A stretch of DNA of 64,000 nt, from contig NZ_CP109327.1 in assembly GCF_035918155.1 (NCBI RefSeq), positions 806,001 to 870,000 of the forward strand. Direction: 5' to 3'. Both the position numbers and the translations under genes were made by a program. Within the stretch, counting starts at the first letter, position 1. Every line of letters begins with the position of its first letter. The DNA comes from Streptomyces sp. NBC_01591 (GTDB lineage Bacteria > Actinomycetota > Actinomycetes > Streptomycetales > Streptomycetaceae). The notes below the pieces were generated by a model. That model did no database searches and was not told the origin of the DNA. It saw nothing but the letters and a program-made list of their open reading frames with translations. Shown here piece by piece: positions 17,958 through 51,028 of the stretch.

Positions 17958-22606
<4,649 letters not shown>

Positions 22607-24217: not shown

Positions 24218-24460
24218 TCAGGTGAGGTCGAACTCGCCGTCGCGGGCATTCACCACGAAGGCGCGTTATTCCGCCGGGGTGAAGATGAGCGACGGGCCGC
24301 CGGGTTTCCCCACGTTGCGCATCGCGATGAATACCTCGACGAAGGCGATCTGGACATCTCCCGCGCCCTGACCGCCGGACCGCCACTGCGCGTTGCTGAG
24401 ATCCAGGTCCGGCCTGTCCCAGCCCGCGAAGGGCTGCTGGGTCGTGGTGCGCTCCGCCAC
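24218..24460 (-). pseudogene. DUF397 protein with a premature TAA at a conserved Trp codon
   Basis: GTG 24460 follows a strong site (GGGAGGAG). The frame encodes AQWRSGGQG, EVFIAMRNVGKPGGPSLIF and TPAE, then TAA at 24266-24268, leaving 64 residues. Beyond it the same frame continues RAFVVNARDGEFDLT to a TGA at 24218, which is the usual DUF397 ending; DUF397 proteins normally have Trp (TPAEW) at this position. TGG to TAA requires two substitutions. DUF397 genes usually accompany an XRE-type regulator; none is adjacent. The truncated form may still be made. Confidence 0.75.
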
Positions 24461-24555
24461 GTCGGCTCCTCCCGCTTGTCGTCCCGGGCCAAGGCGTAGC
24501 CGGCTGCGGCGCGGACAGGGCGCGAACGGGGCTTCCGCCGGCCCGGGACGGCGCG

Positions 24556-25722
24556 TCAGCGGGTGGGGGGCTCGGCTCCGACCAGCCACATGGAGAAGAA
24601 CTGCGCCCCGCCGCCGTACGCGTGGCCGAGCGCCTTCCGGGCCCTCGCCACCTGGTGTTCGCCCGCCTGTCCCCGTACCTGCAACGCGGCTTCGGCGAAG
24701 CGGATCATGCCGGAGGCGCCGATGGGATTGGTGGAGAGCACCCCGCCCGAGGGGTTCACCGGCAGATCGCCGTCGAGTTCGGTGACGCCGGACTCGGTGA
24801 GCTTCCAGCCCTCCCCCTCGTCGGCGAAGCCGAGGTTCTCCAGCCACATCGGCTCGTACCAGGAGAACGGCACGTACATCTCCACGGCGTCGATCTCCCG
24901 TCGCGGGTCGCTGATGCCCGCCTGCCGGTACACATCGGCAGCGCAGTCCCGGCCCGCCCGCGGCGAGACGAAGTCCTTGCCGGCGAAGAGCGTCGGCTCG
25001 CTGCGCATCGCGCCGCCGTGCACCCAGGCCGGCGGATGCGGCGAACGGCCCGCTCCGGCACGGTCGGTGAGGATCATCGCGCAGGCCCCGTCGGAGGACG
25101 GGCAGGTCTCCGAGTAGCGGATCGGGTCCCAGAGCATCGGTGCCGACCGGACCTTCTCCAGGGTGATGTCCGGGTCGTGGATGTGCGCGTACGGATTCTT
25201 GAGCGCGTTGCGGCGGTCCTTGTACGCGACGAGGGAGCCGACCGTGTCGGGCGCGCCGGTGCGGCGCATGTACGCCCGCACGTGCGGGGCGAAGAAGCCG
25301 CCCGCTCCGGCCAGCAGCGGTTGCTGGAACGGGATGGGCAGCGAGAGCCCCCACATGGCGTTGGACTCGGACTGCTTCTCGAAGGCGAGTGTGAGGACGG
25401 TGCGGTGCACCCGTGCAGAGACCAGGTTGGCCGCGACGAGTGCGGTGGAGCCGCCGACGGAGCCCGCGGTGTGCACCCGGAGCATCGGTTTGCCGACCGC
25501 GCCGAGGGCGTCGGCGAGATAGAGCTCCGGCATCATCAGGCCCTCGAAGAAGTCGGGGGCCTTGCCGATGACGACGGCGTCGATGTCCGCCCAGGTCAGT
25601 GCCGCGTCCTCCAGCGCACGGACGGCGGCCTCGCGGACGAGTCCGGCGATGGAGACGTCCAGGCGCGCGGACACGTGCTTCGTCTGGCCGATGCCGACGA
25701 CGGCCACGGGCTCCTCAGGCAT
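24556..25722 (-). CDS. ltp3: Thiolase-fold lipid-transfer protein Ltp3 (sterol side-chain aldolase type)
   Basis: 388 residues. It is closely similar, from remembered sequence, to mycobacterial Ltp3 (Rv3523): GQTKHVSARLDVSIAGLVRE, IGKAPDFFEGLMMPELYLAD, RVHTAGSVGGSTAL, MLWDPIRYSETCPSSDGA, EMYVPFSWYEPMWLENLGF and NPSGGVLSTNPIGASGMIR. Ltp3/Ltp4-type proteins pair with a DUF35 partner in retro-aldol cleavage of C24-branched sterol side chains. The active-site Cys pattern differs from degradative thiolases. It overlaps the ltp4 gene by 8 bp. Substrate is inferred from family and gene order. Confidence 0.83.
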   Translation of the reverse strand: MPEEPVAVVGIGQTKHVSARLDVSIAGLVREAAVRALEDAALTWADIDAVVIGKAPDFFEGLMMPELYLADALGAVGKPMLRVHTAGSVGGSTALVAANLVSARVHRTVLTLAFEKQSESNAMWGLSLPIPFQQPLLAGAGGFFAPHVRAYMRRTGAPDTVGSLVAYKDRRNALKNPYAHIHDPDITLEKVRSAPMLWDPIRYSETCPSSDGACAMILTDRAGAGRSPHPPAWVHGGAMRSEPTLFAGKDFVSPRAGRDCAADVYRQAGISDPRREIDAVEMYVPFSWYEPMWLENLGFADEGEGWKLTESGVTELDGDLPVNPSGGVLSTNPIGASGMIRFAEAALQVRGQAGEHQVARARKALGHAYGGGAQFFSMWLVGAEPPTR

Positions 25723-26767
25723 GAGCGCTCTCCCCTTCGAGGACGGCGACCAGGTTCTGCTGCAGGCAGGGCCCGGAGGTGGCGTGGGCGAGCGCCCGGT
25801 CGGACTCGCCGCGGTGGATGCGGGCAGCGGCCTCGCCGAGGCGGATCAGCCCGGCGGCCATGACGGGGTTGGCAGCGAGGGCGCCGCCGGACGGGTTGAC
25901 GTCGACGCCGGCGTCGAGGCGGAGCGCCTTGCGCAGTATCACCTCCTGGGAGGTGAACGGGGCGTGCAACTCGGCGGTGTCCACGGGCCGTTCGAAGACC
26001 CCGGCGCGGGTCGCGGCGAGCCGGGTGGACGGTGAGTCGGTCAGCTCCCGCACCCCGAGCGAGTGGGCCTCGACGCGGTGGTCGATGCCGCGGATCCAGG
26101 CGGGGCGGGGGCACAGGGCCCGTGCGGTGTCACCGGCGGCGAGGATCACGGCGGCCGCACCGTCGCCGACCGGCGGGCAGTCGCCGGTGCGCAGCGGCTG
26201 CACGACGTAGTCGCCGACCGGGACCGGTCCCTTGAGCTGGGCGTGCGGGTTGTCAGCCGCGGCGGCGCGGCTGCGGTGGGCGATCGCGGCGAGAGCGGCC
26301 TCATCGGTTTCGCCCGCGTCGATCAGTGCCTGGGCCTGGAGGGCGGCGAGTGCGACGGAGTCCGGCCAGAGCGGGCCGACGTAGTAGGGGTCGAGCTGGC
26401 GGGTGAGGACGTCGCGCACCTCGCCGGGCGAGGACTTTCCGTAGGAGTAGACGAGCGCGGTGTCCGCCTGCCCCGTCTGGATCTTCACCCATGCCTCGTA
26501 CAGCGCCCAGGCACCGTCCATCTCCACATGGGACTCGGAGATCGGTGGGTACGCGCCGACGCCGTCGAGCGCCATGGTGAAGGAGAAGGCGCGGCCCGCG
26601 AGATAGTCGCTGGAGCCGGAGCAGGTGAAGCCGATGTCGCCGGCCCTGAGCCCGGTCGCGTCGAGGACCCGGTGGAGGACGGGCATCAGCATCTCGACTT
26701 CGGAGAGTTCGTCGGTGTGCCGCAGGTGGTCCGTCTGCGCGAAGGCGACGATCGCCACGTCTCGCAT
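25715..26767 (-). CDS. ltp4: Thiolase-fold protein Ltp4-like
   Basis: 350 residues, a thiolase superfamily protein lacking the normal N-terminal Cys context. Segments FTCSGSSDYLAGRAFSFTM, SESHVEMDGAWALYEAWVKI, DCPPVGDGAAAVIL and NPSGGALAANPVMAAGLIR match the SCP-x thiolase-like family. It sits between the DUF35 gene, whose stop directly abuts its ATG, and ltp3, as in the mycobacterial Rv3521-Rv3523 order. It probably forms a complex with Ltp3 and the DUF35 protein acting on a steroid acyl-CoA. Confidence 0.8.
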   Translation of the reverse strand: MRDVAIVAFAQTDHLRHTDELSEVEMLMPVLHRVLDATGLRAGDIGFTCSGSSDYLAGRAFSFTMALDGVGAYPPISESHVEMDGAWALYEAWVKIQTGQADTALVYSYGKSSPGEVRDVLTRQLDPYYVGPLWPDSVALAALQAQALIDAGETDEAALAAIAHRSRAAAADNPHAQLKGPVPVGDYVVQPLRTGDCPPVGDGAAAVILAAGDTARALCPRPAWIRGIDHRVEAHSLGVRELTDSPSTRLAATRAGVFERPVDTAELHAPFTSQEVILRKALRLDAGVDVNPSGGALAANPVMAAGLIRLGEAAARIHRGESDRALAHATSGPCLQQNLVAVLEGESAHA

Positions 26768-27712
26768 CTAGAGCAGCTCCTTGTACGCGTCGTAATCGGC
26801 GTCGGGCTCGCCGGTCGGCCGGTAGTGGTCGGGGTGCCGCCCGCCCTCGGTCCAGACGGGTTCGACGCGCAGGCCCATCCGCACCCGGTCGTAGGGGATG
26901 CCGCCGATCCGTGCGTGCAGTGCCAGGTCCGCGCCGTCGAGCGCGATGTGCGCGTAGACGTACGGGACTTCGATGTCGAGGTTCTTCGCCTTGATGTTGA
27001 CGATGCAGAACGTGGTCACGGTGCCGCGTGGGCCGACCTCGACCTGTTCGGCGGTGGCGACACCGCAGGTGGGGCAGGCGCCGCGGGGCGGTACGTACAC
27101 CTTGTGGCAGGACGGGCAGCGCTCGCCGACGATGCGTTGCCGGGCGAGTGCGCCGAGGTACGCGCTCTGGGCGCGGCCGGGGGTGTACCGGTAGTCGAGC
27201 CTGGCGGGGGTGACGATGCCGGTGACAGGGTTGGTGAACTCGCCGTCGTGCGGGCCGGATTGTCCGTTGCTTCCGCCGTCGTACGGTTCGAAGCAGGCGA
27301 TGTCCGTGATCGCGCCGGTCCGTTCGGGGGCCCAGCGGATCCGTACCCGCATGCCGGTGCGTACGGCGCCGGGGCCGGGTGCGGCGAGGGCGTGCAGCAG
27401 GGCGGTGTCGGCGCCGTCGAGCCGGACGAGGACCCAGGCGAAGGGGGTGCCGAGGGGCTGGCCGGGGCGCGGGTCGGGGTTCCAGGCCCAGGTGGTGACG
27501 GTGCCGGTGGCGGCGACCTCGGCCAGTTCACGGATCTCCTCCGCGGTGACGGGGTCGTACTCGACGGGCGGGACCAGGACCTTTCCCCCGGCGGTGCGGA
27601 CGCCCAGGACGGTGCGTTCGCGCAGTCCGGTGAGGAAGGCGCTCTGGACGGGGCCGAGGGAGCGGGTGAAGGGGAATTCGACCACCAGCGGTGCGCTGAG
27701 GGCATCGGGCAC
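26768..27712 (-). CDS. DUF35 zinc-ribbon/OB-fold protein, steroid thiolase partner
   Basis: 314 residues comprising two OB-fold halves. The C-terminal unit has a rubredoxin-like zinc ribbon (ERCPSCHKVYVPPRGACPTC) followed by the OB fold GTVTTFCIVNIKAKNLDIEV. The N-terminal unit (about 1-130) lacks the cysteines. Length and position match the mycobacterial partner of Ltp3/Ltp4 (Rv3521 type). DUF35 proteins supply an acyl-CoA-binding module needed by thiolase-like aldolases. The gene stops immediately before the ltp4 ATG and starts 15 bp after the echA19 stop. Confidence 0.83.
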   Translation of the reverse strand: MPDALSAPLVVEFPFTRSLGPVQSAFLTGLRERTVLGVRTAGGKVLVPPVEYDPVTAEEIRELAEVAATGTVTTWAWNPDPRPGQPLGTPFAWVLVRLDGADTALLHALAAPGPGAVRTGMRVRIRWAPERTGAITDIACFEPYDGGSNGQSGPHDGEFTNPVTGIVTPARLDYRYTPGRAQSAYLGALARQRIVGERCPSCHKVYVPPRGACPTCGVATAEQVEVGPRGTVTTFCIVNIKAKNLDIEVPYVYAHIALDGADLALHARIGGIPYDRVRMGLRVEPVWTEGGRHPDHYRPTGEPDADYDAYKELL

Positions 27713-27727
27713 GGTTGCCTCCTCGGC

Positions 27728-28528
27728 TCAGGCGCGCCGGTAGACGGGCGGGCGCTTCTCGGCGAAGGCGCGGGCGCCTTCCTTGGCGTCGTCGGTCGCG
27801 AAGACGGGCCAGCCGCGCTTCAGTTCGGCGGCCAGTCCCTCGGTCTCGGTCATCTCGGCGGTCTCGTACACGGAGGCCTTGACGGCTTCGACGGCGAGCG
27901 GTCCGCAGGCGTTGATCCGCTCGGCGACGGCGAGGGCGTGTTCCAGCGCGGTGCCGTCTGGGACGACCCGGCCGATCAGCCCGATGCCGGCCGCCTCCTC
28001 GGCGCTGTACGCGCGTCCGGTGAGGAGCATTTCGAGCGCGTGCGTCCGGGCGATCTGGCGCGGCAGCCGGACCGTCGACCCTCCGATGGGGAAGAGGCCT
28101 CGCTGCACCTCGAAGAGCCCGAAGGTGGCGCCCGCCCCGGCGATCCGGATGTCGGTGCCCTGGAGGATCTCGGTGCCGCCCGCGACGCAGTGGCCCTCCA
28201 CGGCGGCGATGACCGGTTTTCGGGGGCGGTGGTGGCGCAGCATCGCCTTCCAGTGCAGATCGGGGTCTGCGGTCATCCGGTCACGGTACTGCTCGCCCTC
28301 CATTCCCTTGCCCGCCAGGGCCTTGAGGTCCATGCCGGCGCAGAAGCAGCCGCCCGCGCCGGTGAGGACCACCGACCGGATCGTGTCGTCCTCGTCCGCC
28401 GCCAGCCAGCCGTCGTACAGCCCGACAAGCATCGGCAGCGACAGGGCGTTCTTCGCCTCCGGCCTGTTCAGGGTGAGCACCAGTGTGGCGCCCTCGCGCC
28501 GCACACCGAGGTGTTCCGTACCAGCCAT
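27728..28528 (-). CDS. echA19: Enoyl-CoA hydratase EchA19-like (crotonase)
   Basis: 266 residues with ATG 28528 after GGGAGG. Crotonase oxyanion-hole motifs CAGMDLKAL (about 68) and AGGTEILQGTDIRIAG are present, and the family end AKEGARAFAEKRPP is intact. It resembles mycobacterial EchA19 (Rv3516, also 266 residues), which hydrates steroid enoyl-CoA esters. It is the first gene of the minus-strand run echA19-DUF35-ltp4-ltp3 and is divergent from fadD19, the same divergent pairing as in mycobacteria. Confidence 0.82.
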   Translation of the reverse strand: MAGTEHLGVRREGATLVLTLNRPEAKNALSLPMLVGLYDGWLAADEDDTIRSVVLTGAGGCFCAGMDLKALAGKGMEGEQYRDRMTADPDLHWKAMLRHHRPRKPVIAAVEGHCVAGGTEILQGTDIRIAGAGATFGLFEVQRGLFPIGGSTVRLPRQIARTHALEMLLTGRAYSAEEAAGIGLIGRVVPDGTALEHALAVAERINACGPLAVEAVKASVYETAEMTETEGLAAELKRGWPVFATDDAKEGARAFAEKRPPVYRRA

Positions 28529-28551
28529 TGTCCGCCTCCCATCCAAAGACC

Positions 28552-28565
28552 TAGAACAGGTTGCA
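28552..28565. promoter_or_regulatory. KstR-type operator TNNAACNNGTTNNA
   Basis: TAGAACAGGTTGCA fits every fixed position of the mycobacterial KstR motif. It lies 23 bp upstream of the echA19-like start and 130 bp upstream of fadD19. No KstR gene is in the window. Confidence 0.55.
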
Positions 28566-28592
28566 GTAGGTGGTGGCCCAGTTCAATAGTTT

Positions 28593-28609
28593 TCTGACAG
28601 CTAGTCAGA
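28593..28609. promoter_or_regulatory. Inverted repeat TCTGAC-N5-GTCAGA
   Basis: A perfect 6-bp-arm palindrome in the echA19/fadD19 divergent region, 86 bp upstream of the fadD19 start. It suits a TetR-type dimer; it is a separate site from the KstR-type box. Confidence 0.4.
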
Positions 28610-28695
28610 TTTCCTCGGCGGCACCCCTTCCCAGTTGCGCCTCCCGGCGCTCTAATGACCGCCGAGCCAGTCAGCTTCCGGGGTCAGGAGGAACG

Positions 28696-30324
28696 GTGGA
28701 GTACAACCTTGCCGACCTGTTCGAGTCGGTCGTCGACGCGGTCCCGGAACGCGAGGCGCTCGTCTACCTCGACCATCCCGGCACGGGTGCGGAGCGCCGG
28801 CTGACGTACGCGGAGCTGGACGCGGCGGCCAACCGCATCGCCCACCACCTGATCGAGGCGGGCATCGCCCCGGGCGAGCATCTGGGGCTGCACCTCTACA
28901 ACGGGGTGGAGTACCTCCAGACCGTGCTGGCCTGCCTGAAGGCCCGCATCGTCCCCGTCAATGTGAACTACCGCTATGTGGAAGAGGAGTTGATCTACCT
29001 CTACCGTGACGCGGATCTGGCGGCGCTGGTCTTCGACGCCGAGTTCGACGAGCGGGTCGCGGCCGCCGCGCCGAAGGCCCCGGGCCTGCGTCATCTGGTG
29101 CGGGTGGGCGCACCGGCGGCGGGGGTCCGGGGCCCGGACACGGTCGCTTTCACGGATGCCGAGGCGGCCGGGAGCCCCGAGCGCGGCTTCCCGCCGCGGT
29201 CGGCCGACGACCAGTTCATCATCTACACCGGCGGCACCACCGGAATGCCCAAGGGTGTGATGTGGCGCCAGGAGGACCTCTTCTTCTCCGGCCTCGGCGG
29301 GGGCGCGCCGACCGGTGAGCCGGTGAAGTCCCCGCAGGAGCTGGCCGAGCGGGTCGCCGCGGGCGGTGACGGGATCACCTTCTTCCCCACTCCCCCGCTG
29401 ATGCACGGCACCTCGACACTCACCGCCTTCATCGGTTTCAACTTCGGGCAGCGGGTCGTGGTCCACCGCAAGTTCGTGCCCGAGGAGGTGCTCCGTACGA
29501 TCGAGAAGGAGAAGGTCACCAGCGTGTCGTTGGTGGGCGACGCGATGCTGCGGCCGCTGATCGACGCGCTGAAGGGCCCGCTGAAGGGCACCGACTGCTC
29601 GTCGATGTTCTCCGTGTCCAGCTCGGGCGCGATCATGTCGGACTCGGTGCGCGCGGAGTTCCAGGCACTCGTGCCGACGGTGATGCTGCTGAACAACTTC
29701 GGCTCCTCGGAGTCCGGGTTCAACGGCACGGCGACGGCCGACTCGGGCCCGGAGAACGGATTCCGGCTCCAGGTCAACTCCCGTACGGCGGTGGTCGACC
29801 CGGCGACGTACGAGCCGGTTGCTCCGGGTGAGCCCGGGCGGATCGCCCAGCGCGGGCACGTGCCGCTCGGGTACTACAACGATCCGCAGAAGACCGCGGA
29901 GACCTTCTTCCGCCGGGGCGACGAGCGATGGGTTTTGCTCGGTGACATGGCGACGGTCGACGAGGACGGAATCGTCACGGTCCTCGGCCGCGGCTCGCAG
30001 TGCATCAACACCGGGGGCGAGAAGGTGTACCCCGAGGAGGTCGAGCAGGCGCTGAAGGCCCATCCGGACGTGTACGACGTCCTGGTCGCCGCGGTGCCCG
30101 ACGCACGGTGGGGCAACCGTGTCGCGGCGGTGGTGCAGCTGCGCGACGGGGCTCCCGAGCCCTCGCTCGACGATCTCCAGGCCCACTGCAGGACCCGTCT
30201 GGCGGGCTACAAGATCCCCCGCCGGCTGGTGATCACCCCCCGGATCCAGCGCTCACCGAGCGGCAAGGCCGACTACCGGTGGGCCCGCTCGGTCGTCGCG
30301 CCCCGACGCGAGCCCGGGGAATGA
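28696..30324 (+). CDS. fadD19: Steroid side-chain acyl-CoA ligase FadD19-like
   Basis: 542 residues with GTG 28696 behind AGGAGGA. It is an ANL-family adenylating enzyme: P-loop YTGGTTGMPKGVMW (about residue 177), NNFGSSESGFNG, LLGDMATVDEDGIVTVLGRG and the C-terminal lysine motif RSPSGKADYRWAR. These diagnostic blocks agree with mycobacterial FadD19 as remembered, which activates C26 (including C24-branched) 3-oxosterol carboxylates to CoA thioesters. Together with the divergent echA19-ltp genes it would start side-chain beta-oxidation. The actual substrate in this organism is inferred. Confidence 0.85.
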   Translation: MEYNLADLFESVVDAVPEREALVYLDHPGTGAERRLTYAELDAAANRIAHHLIEAGIAPGEHLGLHLYNGVEYLQTVLACLKARIVPVNVNYRYVEEELIYLYRDADLAALVFDAEFDERVAAAAPKAPGLRHLVRVGAPAAGVRGPDTVAFTDAEAAGSPERGFPPRSADDQFIIYTGGTTGMPKGVMWRQEDLFFSGLGGGAPTGEPVKSPQELAERVAAGGDGITFFPTPPLMHGTSTLTAFIGFNFGQRVVVHRKFVPEEVLRTIEKEKVTSVSLVGDAMLRPLIDALKGPLKGTDCSSMFSVSSSGAIMSDSVRAEFQALVPTVMLLNNFGSSESGFNGTATADSGPENGFRLQVNSRTAVVDPATYEPVAPGEPGRIAQRGHVPLGYYNDPQKTAETFFRRGDERWVLLGDMATVDEDGIVTVLGRGSQCINTGGEKVYPEEVEQALKAHPDVYDVLVAAVPDARWGNRVAAVVQLRDGAPEPSLDDLQAHCRTRLAGYKIPRRLVITPRIQRSPSGKADYRWARSVVAPRREPGE

Positions 30325-48233: not shown

Positions 48234-49784
48234 TCACACGGCCCGTTGGCGTCCTTCCCAGTACGGGTCGCGCAGCCGCCGCTTGTAGAGCTTGCCGTTG
48301 GGGTCGCGGGGCATCACGTCGATGAAGTCGATGGTCCTGGGGCGCTTGTACCCGGCGAGACGCTCTTCGCAGTGGCGCAGGATCCCGGCGGCGAGCGCCT
48401 CCCCCGCCTCGTGTCCCGCGGCCGGTTCGACGACCGCCTTGACCTCCTCGCCCCAGTCGGGATGCGGGATGCCGAAGACGGCGACGTCGGCGACCGCGGG
48501 GTGGCCGAGGAGAGCCCCCTCGATCTCGGCGGGGTAGATGTTGACCCCACCGGAGATGATCATGTCGATCTTGCGGTCGCGGAGGAAGAGGTAGCCGTCC
48601 TCGTCGAGGATGCCGAGGTCGCCGACGGTGAAGAAGTCGCCGATGCGGTTCTTCCGCGTCTTGGTCTCGTCCTTGTGGTAGCTGAAGCCGCCGGTGTTCA
48701 TCTTCATGTAGACGGTGCCGAGCTCGCCGGGCGGCAGCCGTTCGCCGTCGTCGTCGAAGACGGCGAGTTCACTGATCGGCCAGGCCCTGCCGACCGTGCC
48801 CGGTTTCTTCAGCCAGTCCTCGGCGGTGGCGAAGGCGCCGCCGCCCTCGCTGGCCGCGTAGTACTCCTCGACGCACCTCCCCCACCAGTCGATCATGGCG
48901 CGCTTGACGTGGTCGGGGCAGGGCGCGGCACCGTGGATGGCGTGCCGCATGGCCGTGACGTCGTAGCGCCGTTTCACCTCGTCGGGGAGGGAGAGGAGGC
49001 GGTGGAACTGGGTCGGGACCATGTGCGTGTGGGTGCAGCGGTGGGTGTCGATGAGCCGCAGCATGTCCTCGGGCGTCCACCTGTCCATCAGGACCAGCGG
49101 GTGTCCGATGTGCAGGGACGCGGCGGCGAACTGCAGCACGGCCGTGTGGTAGAGCGGCGAGCAGACCAGGTGGACGTTGCCGTCGAACGGTTTGATGCCG
49201 AAGATGCCGAGGAATCCGCCGAGGTGGCTCTCCTCGGGGAGCTTGCCGGAGAGCGGACGGCGGATGCCGCGCGGGCGGCCGGTGGTGCCCGAGGTGTAGT
49301 TCATGACCCAGCCCAGGGTGCGGTCGTCCGGGGCTTGTCCGGACTGCCCTTCGAGCAGTTCGGCGTACGGGCGGAAGCCGTCGACCGTGCCCACGGCGAA
49401 GCGGTGGGTGGCCGGCAGCTCCGCCTCGTCGGCGGCCTCGGTCGCGGCCTGGGCGAACCGCTCGTGGGCGATGAGCACCTTGGCGCCGGAGTCGGAGACG
49501 ATCCAGGCGATCTCGGGGCCGACGAAGTGGTGGTTGACGGGGACGAGGTAGAGGCCGGCCTGGGCGGCGGCGAGGTAGGCGGTGAAGAACTCGACGCCGT
49601 TGGGCAGCACGACCGCGAACGCGTCGCCCCGCCGCAGCCCGGCGGCGCGCAGTCCGTGGACGAGGCGGTTGGCGGCGGCGTGCAGCCGGCCCGCCGTCCA
49701 GCTCTCGCCGTCGGGTGCGGTCAGGACCGTGCGGTCGGGGTCGGCGGTTGCCTGGGCCCAGAAGCCGTTGGGCGGCGGGGTCAT
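48234..49784 (-). CDS. Acyl-CoA ligase (FadD8/FadD17-like ANL enzyme)
   Basis: 516 residues. The AMP-binding motif is NYTSGTTGRPRGIRR (about 168), followed by HMVPTQFHRLL, GDFFTVGDLGILDEDGYLFL and the C-terminal DPNGKLYKRRLRDPYW with its catalytic Lys. The enzyme type is common in actinobacterial lipid and steroid catabolism. It overlaps the nitronate monooxygenase stop by 4 bp, so the two are translationally coupled and probably act in one pathway. Confidence 0.87.
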   Translation of the reverse strand: MTPPPNGFWAQATADPDRTVLTAPDGESWTAGRLHAAANRLVHGLRAAGLRRGDAFAVVLPNGVEFFTAYLAAAQAGLYLVPVNHHFVGPEIAWIVSDSGAKVLIAHERFAQAATEAADEAELPATHRFAVGTVDGFRPYAELLEGQSGQAPDDRTLGWVMNYTSGTTGRPRGIRRPLSGKLPEESHLGGFLGIFGIKPFDGNVHLVCSPLYHTAVLQFAAASLHIGHPLVLMDRWTPEDMLRLIDTHRCTHTHMVPTQFHRLLSLPDEVKRRYDVTAMRHAIHGAAPCPDHVKRAMIDWWGRCVEEYYAASEGGGAFATAEDWLKKPGTVGRAWPISELAVFDDDGERLPPGELGTVYMKMNTGGFSYHKDETKTRKNRIGDFFTVGDLGILDEDGYLFLRDRKIDMIISGGVNIYPAEIEGALLGHPAVADVAVFGIPHPDWGEEVKAVVEPAAGHEAGEALAAGILRHCEERLAGYKRPRTIDFIDVMPRDPNGKLYKRRLRDPYWEGRQRAV

Positions 49785-50890
49785 GAGGCGCTCCGTCCGG
49801 CGATGCGGTTGATCCGGTCCACGGCTCGCTCGAAGCCGCGGGTCAGGTCGTCGAAGACGGCCTGAACGCTGCGCTCACTGTTCATCCGGCCGACGATCTG
49901 GCCGACGGGGGTGCCGAGCAGCGCGCCGGTCTCGTACTTCTGGATGCGCGACACGGCCTCGGCCACCAGCAGCCCCTGGAGCGGCATGGGAAGAGTGCCG
50001 GGCCCCGCCGGGTCGTCCCAGGCGTCGGTCCATTCGGTACGGAGCTGACGCGCGGGTTTGCCGGTGAGCGCGCGGGAGCGGACGGTGTCGCCGGAGCCGG
50101 CGGCGAGGAGTTTGCGGGTCAGCGCGCGGGAGTGGAGGTCGGCCTCCTCGGTGGTCAGCCAGAGGGAGCCGAGCCAGACACCCTGGGCACCGAGGGCGAG
50201 TCCGGCGGCGATCTGTTCGCCGCTGCCGATCCCGCCGGCGGCGAGGACGGGAAGCGGTCCGACGGCGTCGACCACGTCCGGGACCAGGACCATGGAGGCG
50301 ATCTCGCCGGTGTGGCCGCCCGCCTCGTACCCCTGGGCGACGACGATGTCGATGCCCGCGTCGGCGTGGTGGCGGGCGTGCTTGGCGCTCCCGGCGAGGG
50401 CGGCGACGAGTACGCCCCGGTCGTGGGCACGCTGGACGACATCGGCGGGCGGCGACCCGAGGGCGTTGGCGAGGAGCCTGATGGGGTAGTCGAAGGCGAC
50501 GTCGAGCTGGTTGCGGGCGACCTCCTCCATCCAGCCGGTGATGCGCCAGCCGGACGCCTCGCCGTCGGGAAGTTCCGGTACGCCGTGCTTGGCGAGGGTG
50601 TCCTGGACGAACTGGCGGTGCCCGGCCGGGATCATCGCCTCGACATCGGCCTCGGTCACCCCCTCCACCTTTTTCGCGGGCATGACGACGTCGAGGCCGT
50701 ACGGCTTGCCGTCGGTGTGCTCCTGCATCCAGTCGAGGTCGCGCGCGAGGTCGTCGGGGGCGGTGTAGCGGACCGCGCCGAGTACGCCGAATCCGCCGGC
50801 CCGGGTGATGGCCGCGGCCACTGCGGGGAACGGCGTGAAGCCGAAGATGGCGTGCTCGACTCCCAGTTTCTTGCTCAGCTCCGTCTCCAT
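49781..50890 (-). CDS. Nitronate monooxygenase / NPD-like flavoprotein
   Basis: 369 residues, TIM-barrel FMN enzyme: FGFTPFPAVAAAITRAGGFGVL at the N-terminus, VAQGYEAGGHTGEI, LPVLAAGGIGSGEQ and ALGAQGVWLGSLWL for FMN phosphate binding. The catalytic His of nitronate monooxygenases is in AGGHTGE. In actinobacteria such proteins often sit with fatty-acid activation genes, as here, so an oxidoreductase or isomerase role on an acyl-CoA is also possible. ATG 50890 fits the family N-terminus, although its ribosome site is weak. Confidence 0.85.
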   Translation of the reverse strand: METELSKKLGVEHAIFGFTPFPAVAAAITRAGGFGVLGAVRYTAPDDLARDLDWMQEHTDGKPYGLDVVMPAKKVEGVTEADVEAMIPAGHRQFVQDTLAKHGVPELPDGEASGWRITGWMEEVARNQLDVAFDYPIRLLANALGSPPADVVQRAHDRGVLVAALAGSAKHARHHADAGIDIVVAQGYEAGGHTGEIASMVLVPDVVDAVGPLPVLAAGGIGSGEQIAAGLALGAQGVWLGSLWLTTEEADLHSRALTRKLLAAGSGDTVRSRALTGKPARQLRTEWTDAWDDPAGPGTLPMPLQGLLVAEAVSRIQKYETGALLGTPVGQIVGRMNSERSVQAVFDDLTRGFERAVDRINRIAGRSAS

Positions 50891-51028
50891 GGGCCGCAGG
50901 ATGCCGCAGCCGGACATCCGAGGGAAGAGATTTTCTGATGCAGTGTCAGATTCTTTGTGACGCAGGGGACCTCCGTGACGGCGGGGGTGACAGTAATCTC
51001 TGCGGCGGCAGGAAGTTTCATTGTCGGA

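Follow-up and report, generated by a model that had tools for sequence, protein, structure and literature searches.

The closest described relatives of the genes considered here are the KstR-regulated side-chain genes of Mycobacterium and Rhodococcus (fadD19-echA19, DUF35-ltp4-ltp3, cyp125-fadA5, and igr), whose families are shared with Streptomyces. The Rv3515c/Rv3516 region of M. tuberculosis has a KstR site with positive experimental evidence, according to the part of the source available (PMC1995591), and in M. smegmatis FadD19 is required for C24-branched but not for straight chains, with Ltp3 and Ltp4 cited likewise in the accessible portion of that report (PMC6273163). Here we describe a block of five such genes, i.e. 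a fadD19-like ligase gene divergent from echA19, DUF35, ltp4, and ltp3 homologs, in a 64-kb stretch of a Streptomyces chromosome (Streptomyces sp. NBC_01591, bases 806001–870000; hereafter the window), which belongs to an 8.8-Mb contig in a 10.25-Mb genome with an assembly completeness of 97%. The block is probably a component of a dispersed regulon for the removal of sterol side chains, chiefly those branched at C24 (ergosterol, phytosterols), with the rings left behind.

Sterol attack by Streptomyces has been reported from other directions. In vitro, CYP125A13 from S. peucetius is a cholesterol C27-hydroxylase; it represents the same P450 family within this genus, and pathway partners are not mentioned in the available part of the report (PMC9728343). 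Growth of S. lavendulae on yeast induces choD and cyp125A13 and is accompanied by the disappearance of yeast sterols and the formation of modified ones; sterol loss varies across eight further strains, and S. lividans TK24 alters the yeast sterols least (PMC13170338). Both the sterol attack and the induction of cyp125A13 fit the genes described here, and no side-chain set, absence of ring genes, or product is named in the accessible text of that study. A 2016 survey of steroid degraders found the pathway in two of 57 Streptomyces genomes and not in the other 55 (PMC4810484), in agreement with the rarity of KshA that we observe (28 of 295 genomes at E ≤ 1e-30); it scores whole pathways, and the part available makes no mention of a side-chain-only set in Streptomyces. 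A literature search, with partial coverage of subscription journals, found no description of such a set. The enzymes themselves have been described before; the apparent novelty lies in a side-chain set that is dispersed, occurs genus-wide, has promoter motifs in common, and lacks ring degradation.

The Streptomyces genes resemble those of mycobacteria in the order and divergence of fadD19 and echA19, the presence of a KstR-type box in the same promoter, the divergence of cyp125 from fadA5, and the content of an igr-like operon. In contrast to the mycobacterial arrangement, the parts lie in at least three unlinked loci, the genome has no HsaC or KstD match and only a weak match to the KshA_C domain, and the igr-like operon (locus B) has a ChsH2-like gene between its dehydrogenase genes, whose order is swapped. 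An extra palindrome is also present, and no KstR gene is identified in the stretches of the genome that were searched.

The five-gene block and its partners in the genome

A note made earlier from the window sequence had proposed that these five genes form a mycobacterial-type C24-branched sterol side-chain set in the mycobacterial order. Both parts of this proposal are borne out by family profile matches (Table 1), by the neighbourhoods of 20 Streptomyces loci (the window's own included), and by comparison with a mycobacterial-type reference genome (G469, family f4), in which kshA, kstD, fadA5, cyp125, igr, and hsa genes are found around ltp3 and ltp4; the gene names in this reference are presumed ones, assigned by comparison with the M. 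tuberculosis gene order. Identities to the reference are 65% for Ltp3, 54% for Ltp4, 45% for the DUF35 protein, 54% for EchA19, and 44% for FadD19. Ltp3 is likewise 65% identical to a protein adjoining a mycobacterial-type kshA/echA19/fadD19 region (L109). The top PDB matches of the echA19 product are the EchA19 entries 6wyi and 4f47, and the DUF35 protein matches ChsH2(DUF35) 6ok1_B and is expected to be the partner subunit of the Ltp proteins. Order and orientation of the five genes are the same in all 20 neighbourhoods, so the block is not a product of chance, and chance or misannotation is ruled out by the long family matches together with the conserved neighbourhoods.

Two translation starts were revised. 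The fadD19 start is placed at the GTG at 28696, preceded by an AGGAGG-like site, rather than at 28570, because the family match starts at residue 43 of the longer frame; the echA19 start is placed at 28528, leaving an intergenic region of 167 bp. In Ltp3 the active-site motif YVPF is found in 39 of 40 rows across families (YIPY in the remaining one), and Ltp4 has HAPF in all 20 Streptomyces rows and variable residues in other families. These residues are consistent with a catalytic Ltp3 partnered by Ltp4, and the ltp3 product is a proposed aldol-lyase for C24-branched side chains.

The same genome also contains a CYP125, a FadA5-type thiolase, and an igr-type operon with two acyl-CoA dehydrogenases (ACADs), ChsH1, ChsH2, and Ltp2, in addition to the five side-chain orthologs of the block. 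At locus D the thiolase reaches 690.7 bits with the model for steroid 3-ketoacyl-CoA thiolases (cut-off 515) and is 60% identical to the reference FadA5, and the divergent CYP125 is 58% identical to its reference counterpart; it is the top of 23 P450 matches, with 59% identity over 407 aa against 36% for the runner-up. The same divergence of cyp125 and thiolase genes is present in a mycobacterial-type locus (L136). Identities for locus B are 67% (Ltp2), 52% (ChsH1), and 37% (ChsH2). For the 133-aa protein of this operon Pfam gives nothing at 1e-8, and its name comes from its identity to the mycobacterial-type ChsH1; the 403-aa dehydrogenase is 45% identical to the product of the second (fadE29-position) gene of the mycobacterial-type operon. 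Ltp2 exceeds its family cut-off and retains the YDHF motif; its second motif includes a tyrosine that we read as the same residue as in TcLtp2, the protein from which the available part of the source describes both motifs (PMC12329534). At locus E the Rv3538-like MaoC, Hsd4A-like, and FadE34-like proteins are 50%, 53%, and 46% identical to those of the reference.

A further palindrome-bearing locus at 5.03 Mb (L131, L132; G000:C1:5025086-5046247) contains genes for a FadD3-family ligase, an IpdE2-like dehydrogenase, two Ltp/thiolase-like proteins, and a P450; genes judged by eye to be DUF35-like, hydratase-like, and TetR-like are also present.

Table 1. Positions of the side-chain genes, promoter motifs, and associated genes. 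Base positions are those of the window; positions in Mb are chromosomal.
Feature	Position	Strand	Basis or remark
ltp3-like thiolase-fold protein	24556..25722	-	PRK08313, 710 bits (cut-off 514)
ltp4-like thiolase-fold partner protein	25715..26767	-	PRK07937, 560 bits (cut-off 419)
DUF35/ChsH2-C protein, zinc ribbon and OB fold	26768..27712	-	Pfam OB_ChsH2_C (2 stretches) and zf-ChsH2
echA19-like enoyl-CoA hydratase	27728..28528	-	PRK07799, 412 bits (cut-off 316)
KstR-type box TAGAACAGGTTGCA	28552..28565		fadD19-echA19 promoter; fits consensus TnnAACnnGTTnnA
Palindrome CTGACAGCTAGTCAG, proposed shared operator	28594..28608		pattern CTGA[CT]-N5-[AG]TCAG
fadD19-like steroid side-chain CoA ligase	28696..30324	+	PRK07798, 743 bits (cut-off 543)
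Acyl-CoA synthetase	48234..49784	-	joined to the block by neighbourhood evidence
Nitronate-monooxygenase-family (NMO) flavoprotein	49781..50917	-	Pfam NMO, 170 bits
Second palindrome copy CTGATGCAGTGTCAG	50935..50949		upstream of the NMO-family gene
Locus E	2.761-2.770 Mb		MaoC (2.76 Mb), Hsd4A-like, and FadE34-like (2.77 Mb) genes
Locus D	2.813-2.816 Mb		thiolase divergent from CYP125
Locus B (igr-like operon)	4.518-4.523 Mb		order ACAD, MaoC-DUF35 type, ACAD, small MaoC-type, Ltp2

Distribution and ring-degradation genes

The locus is not confined to this strain. Among 295 sampled Streptomyces genomes, Ltp4 (counted at E ≤ 1e-100) is present in 202, Ltp2-like proteins in 213, and CYP125 in 207; 199 have all three and 82 have none. 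Ltp4 occurs without CYP125 in three genomes (G008, G144, and G205), all of which are fragmented assemblies, CYP125 occurs without Ltp4 in eight, and Ltp4 is never found without an Ltp2-like protein, or in two genomes after dropping four weak Ltp2 rows (a co-occurrence of 200/202). The Fisher values of ~1e-60 for this co-occurrence do not take shared ancestry into account and should not be read as probabilities of function.

Protein identities are 77–94% in the 19 other Streptomyces neighbourhoods, and when 80 named Streptomyces loci were scanned from among 500 confirmed matches, 77 had the five genes in order; the remaining three show a partial block where the sequence stretch is short on that side. 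The closest Ltp4 homologs among the matches listed are 89–96% identical and come from Streptomyces wherever the organism is named. A tree of Ltp3 from 30 of the 40 fetched loci (ten Streptomyces rows being left out) places the ten Streptomyces rows that it includes in one clade with support of 100/100, apart from other families. Recent transfer into this strain is ruled out, because the Streptomyces clade is fully supported and the block is common to the other fetched Streptomyces.

Strong matches to KshA (E ≤ 1e-30; 263–321 bits) are present in the 28 genus genomes mentioned above, and 174 of the 199 genomes with CYP125, Ltp4, and Ltp2-like proteins have none at this threshold. Ring-degrading Streptomyces seem to use the same side-chain genes, since 26 of the 28 KshA-positive genomes have CYP125 (one match each) and 25 have Ltp4. 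In a class-level draw of 345 genomes, 87 of which have Ltp4, KshA is present in every Ltp4 genome of families f4 (29), f26 (10), and f35 (1), and in 1 of 22 for Streptomyces, 4 of 13 for f17, and 1 of 12 for f18 (the last at 112 bits); in three families of the class ltp4 and ring degradation are therefore largely uncoupled. In f17 (L117–L124) and f18 (L125–L128) it is also common for a genome with a block of Ltp3, Ltp4, and DUF35 genes to have no KshA, and no more than 20 kb from the block in one f18 locus (L126) there are ACAD genes and an apparent MaoC-Ltp2 pair.

These distributions bear on whether the substrate is a sterol at all, as the set could act on another bulky branched acid, e.g. 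a hopanoid, terpenoid, or polyketide side chain. The 174 Streptomyces genomes just described would fit such a substrate, as would the absence of KshA from 9 of 13 f17 and 11 of 12 f18 genomes with Ltp4, and retro-aldol chemistry needs just a beta-branched acyl-CoA. We nonetheless consider a non-sterol substrate unlikely: a CYP125 ortholog co-occurs with the block across the genus, a steroid-type FadA5 thiolase is present in the genome, KstR-type boxes are found, and most KshA-positive Streptomyces carry the same genes. Among the modified substrates suggested in the earlier note, a hopanoid-like or polyketide acid has become less likely, because the block is accompanied by the CYP125 ortholog and by thiolase and aldolase partners of steroid type.

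The same note had also raised a split pathway, and this holds in that the CYP125, the FadA5-type thiolase, and the igr-like operon are unlinked in the same genome; a split with the ring-degradation genes located elsewhere is not supported. The one KshA_C-domain match in the genome (73 bits) is a Rieske gene at 7.36 Mb, and although it exceeds the Pfam cut-off of 23.3 it is ruled out as KshA by this score and its 22% identity to mycobacterial-type KshA. HsaC has no match in the genome at E ≤ 1e-20. KstD has none at E ≤ 1e-5, an empty result without a known positive in the same search; the positive control was run with another program (tblastn) on two stretches (L144 and L145). The controls in ring-cluster stretches of two Streptomyces genomes (G103 and G179) recovered KshA at 56–57%, HsaC at 46–47%, and KstD at 48% identity. 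The search for a hidden ring cluster elsewhere in the genome covered these three markers, none of which gave a good match. A search for HsaC in 121 genomes gave 27 with a match, nine of them at 268–310 bits and all nine KshA-positive, and no KshA-positive genome below G121 is missing from these nine. About one tenth of the sampled Streptomyces genomes (e.g. those of L144 and L145) have a strong KshA match.

Complete mineralisation, in which the rings are degraded too by enzymes that are either too divergent for these searches or encoded outside the assembly, would be compatible with an assembly that is 97% complete, with the weak KshA_C match, and with the near-complete loss of yeast sterols reported for S. 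platensis in the available part of the predation study (PMC13170338). Also on this side, at 5.03 Mb the FadD3-family ligase scores 832 bits (cut-off 657) and the IpdE2-like dehydrogenase 209 bits, which is under its cut-off of 450; in mycobacteria both families are associated with rings C and D. The failure to find a good KshA, HsaC, or KstD match where the controls succeed argues against mineralisation, which we regard as improbable.

Promoter motifs and the proposed route

The consensus TnnAACnnGTTnnA has a single match in the window, the KstR-type box at 28552 (0.10 expected). An exact box is present in 34 of the 77 named Streptomyces fadD19-echA19 promoters and nowhere in the surrounding 527 kb, and the consensus retains its core AACCTGTT. 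Within 190 kb of the genome's own sequence there are three boxes, located before fadD19/echA19, the MaoC gene, and the FadE34-like gene; this count is not an unbiased genome sample, because the stretches were picked for these genes. Loci B and D have no exact box.

The palindrome is present in all 77 named fadD19-echA19 intergenic regions, with none in the surrounding 527 kb, and in all 20 neighbourhood promoters. It precedes the first ACAD gene of locus B in five of six other genomes (the sixth has no match to that gene) and lies upstream of cyp125 in two of two. There are 16 copies in the same 190 kb, nine of them before genes of loci A to E (locus A being that of the window). In the window by itself the palindrome is not significant (two copies against 0.83 expected, and at least two in 17 of 100 shuffles), and the non-Streptomyces genes examined had no copy upstream. 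SAV576 is ruled out as its regulator, as the SAV576 site CCRTACRVYGTATGS given in the available part of the source differs (PMC3742746).

Decay of a once complete ancestral sterol pathway into a remnant with no present function would account for the dispersed parts and for the ring genes not being found, and is very improbable given the 77–94% protein identity in the 19 other neighbourhoods, the lack of internal stops in any Ltp4 row displayed, the palindrome kept in 77 of 77 named promoters, and the presence or absence of the loci together.

Removal of the side chain by a dispersed regulon, which we favour, would proceed as follows. CYP125 of locus D (2.81 Mb) would oxidise the sterol side chain at its terminal methyl group, and FadD19 would convert the resulting acid to its CoA thioester. 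Dehydrogenation may be carried out by the FadE34-like protein (2.77 Mb) and the two locus-B ACADs, and hydration by EchA19 and the Rv3538-like MaoC protein (2.76 Mb) would give a beta-hydroxyacyl-CoA, tertiary at C24 if the chain is branched, as it is in ergosterol. Ltp3/Ltp4 with the DUF35 protein would cleave this intermediate by a retro-aldol reaction, the FadA5-type thiolase of locus D would handle the unbranched round of beta-oxidation, and the igr-like operon of locus B (4.52 Mb) would take off the last three carbons as a propionyl unit to leave a C17 ketone. We infer the substrate, the order of the steps, the regulator, and the product, which would be a C19 17-ketosteroid.

Several observations weigh against this reading. 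FadD19 is only 44% identical to its mycobacterial-type counterpart, EchA19 scores 366 bits against its equivalog model, under the cut-off of 400, and the 344-aa dehydrogenase of locus B has 27% identity to the product of the first (fadE28-position) gene of the mycobacterial-type operon. The exact KstR box occurs in just 11 of the 20 neighbourhood promoters, no KstR ortholog was found in the stretches of the genome searched (a genome-wide search was not run), and 7 of the 16 palindromes have no clear relation to pathway genes, some of them lying inside open frames. The co-occurrence is uncorrected for kinship, so that losses may cluster in few clades, the Ltp2 threshold of 1e-80 lets in paralogues, and KshA-positive Streptomyces are only mildly enriched for Ltp4 (25/28 vs 177/267, p=0.011). 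The passing of the Pfam cut-off by the KshA_C match and the limits of the KstD search count on the same side, as does the count of 28 KshA-positive genomes among 295, which would increase with a laxer threshold. The accessible part of the yeast-predation study does not name the genes of the block (PMC13170338).

A wider proposal, which we offer tentatively and at somewhat less than even odds, is that the genus strips sterols and discards the remainder: side chains of plant sterols and of ergosterol from fungi would yield propionyl- and acetyl-CoA while the cells prey on other organisms or grow as saprophytes, and the androstane core would stay in the soil as C19 17-ketosteroids. About one tenth of the genus (the 28 genomes with strong KshA matches) has ring-degradation genes as well. 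Propionyl- and acetyl-CoA from the side chain are also polyketide building blocks, and if the proposal is correct sterol eating would be tied to the supply of propionyl-CoA for antibiotics. Cutting of side chains without ring opening in about two thirds of species would explain feeding on fungal and plant sterols, and it would predict bacteria as a source of soil C19 steroids and provide non-mycobacterial hosts for steroid-drug precursors. The loci described here supply candidate genes for the fate of yeast sterols in Streptomyces predation.

Associated and neighbouring genes

The synthetase and NMO-family genes 18 kb from the block appear to belong with it, as judged from their neighbourhoods in other genomes and from the promoter. 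Orthologs of the synthetase with 81–85% identity adjoin fadD19 in three of the 20 Streptomyces loci (L058, L067, and L069), and orthologs with 55–58% identity adjoin the DUF35 gene in all eight f17 loci, with one more in L116. The NMO-family gene has an ortholog adjoining fadD19 in the same three Streptomyces loci, with a copy of the palindrome 32 bases upstream of the homolog in two of them (L067 and L069), and 53–57% identical homologs (>250 bits) are found around ltp3/ltp4 in 8 of 20 loci of other families. Between this pair and the block there is an aromatic-polyketide gene set (ketosynthase, cyclase, methyltransferase, SchA/CurD), which we take to resemble the whiE spore-pigment cluster.

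A small, presumably DUF397-like open frame at ~24266–24555 (minus strand) follows ltp3, and similar frames follow ltp3 in three other loci (L059, L060, and L072). On the same side of the block a two-domain terpene synthase gene at 18024–20237, which we take to be of the geosmin-synthase type, has homologs near the block in several of the 20 Streptomyces neighbourhoods. The adjacent GH95-family glycosidase gene (20213–22606) is split over two neighbouring frames (218 aa and 578 aa), each of which contains part of the N-terminal domain, and a related Streptomyces has the glycosidase as a single 812-aa frame (L066, 13569–16007).

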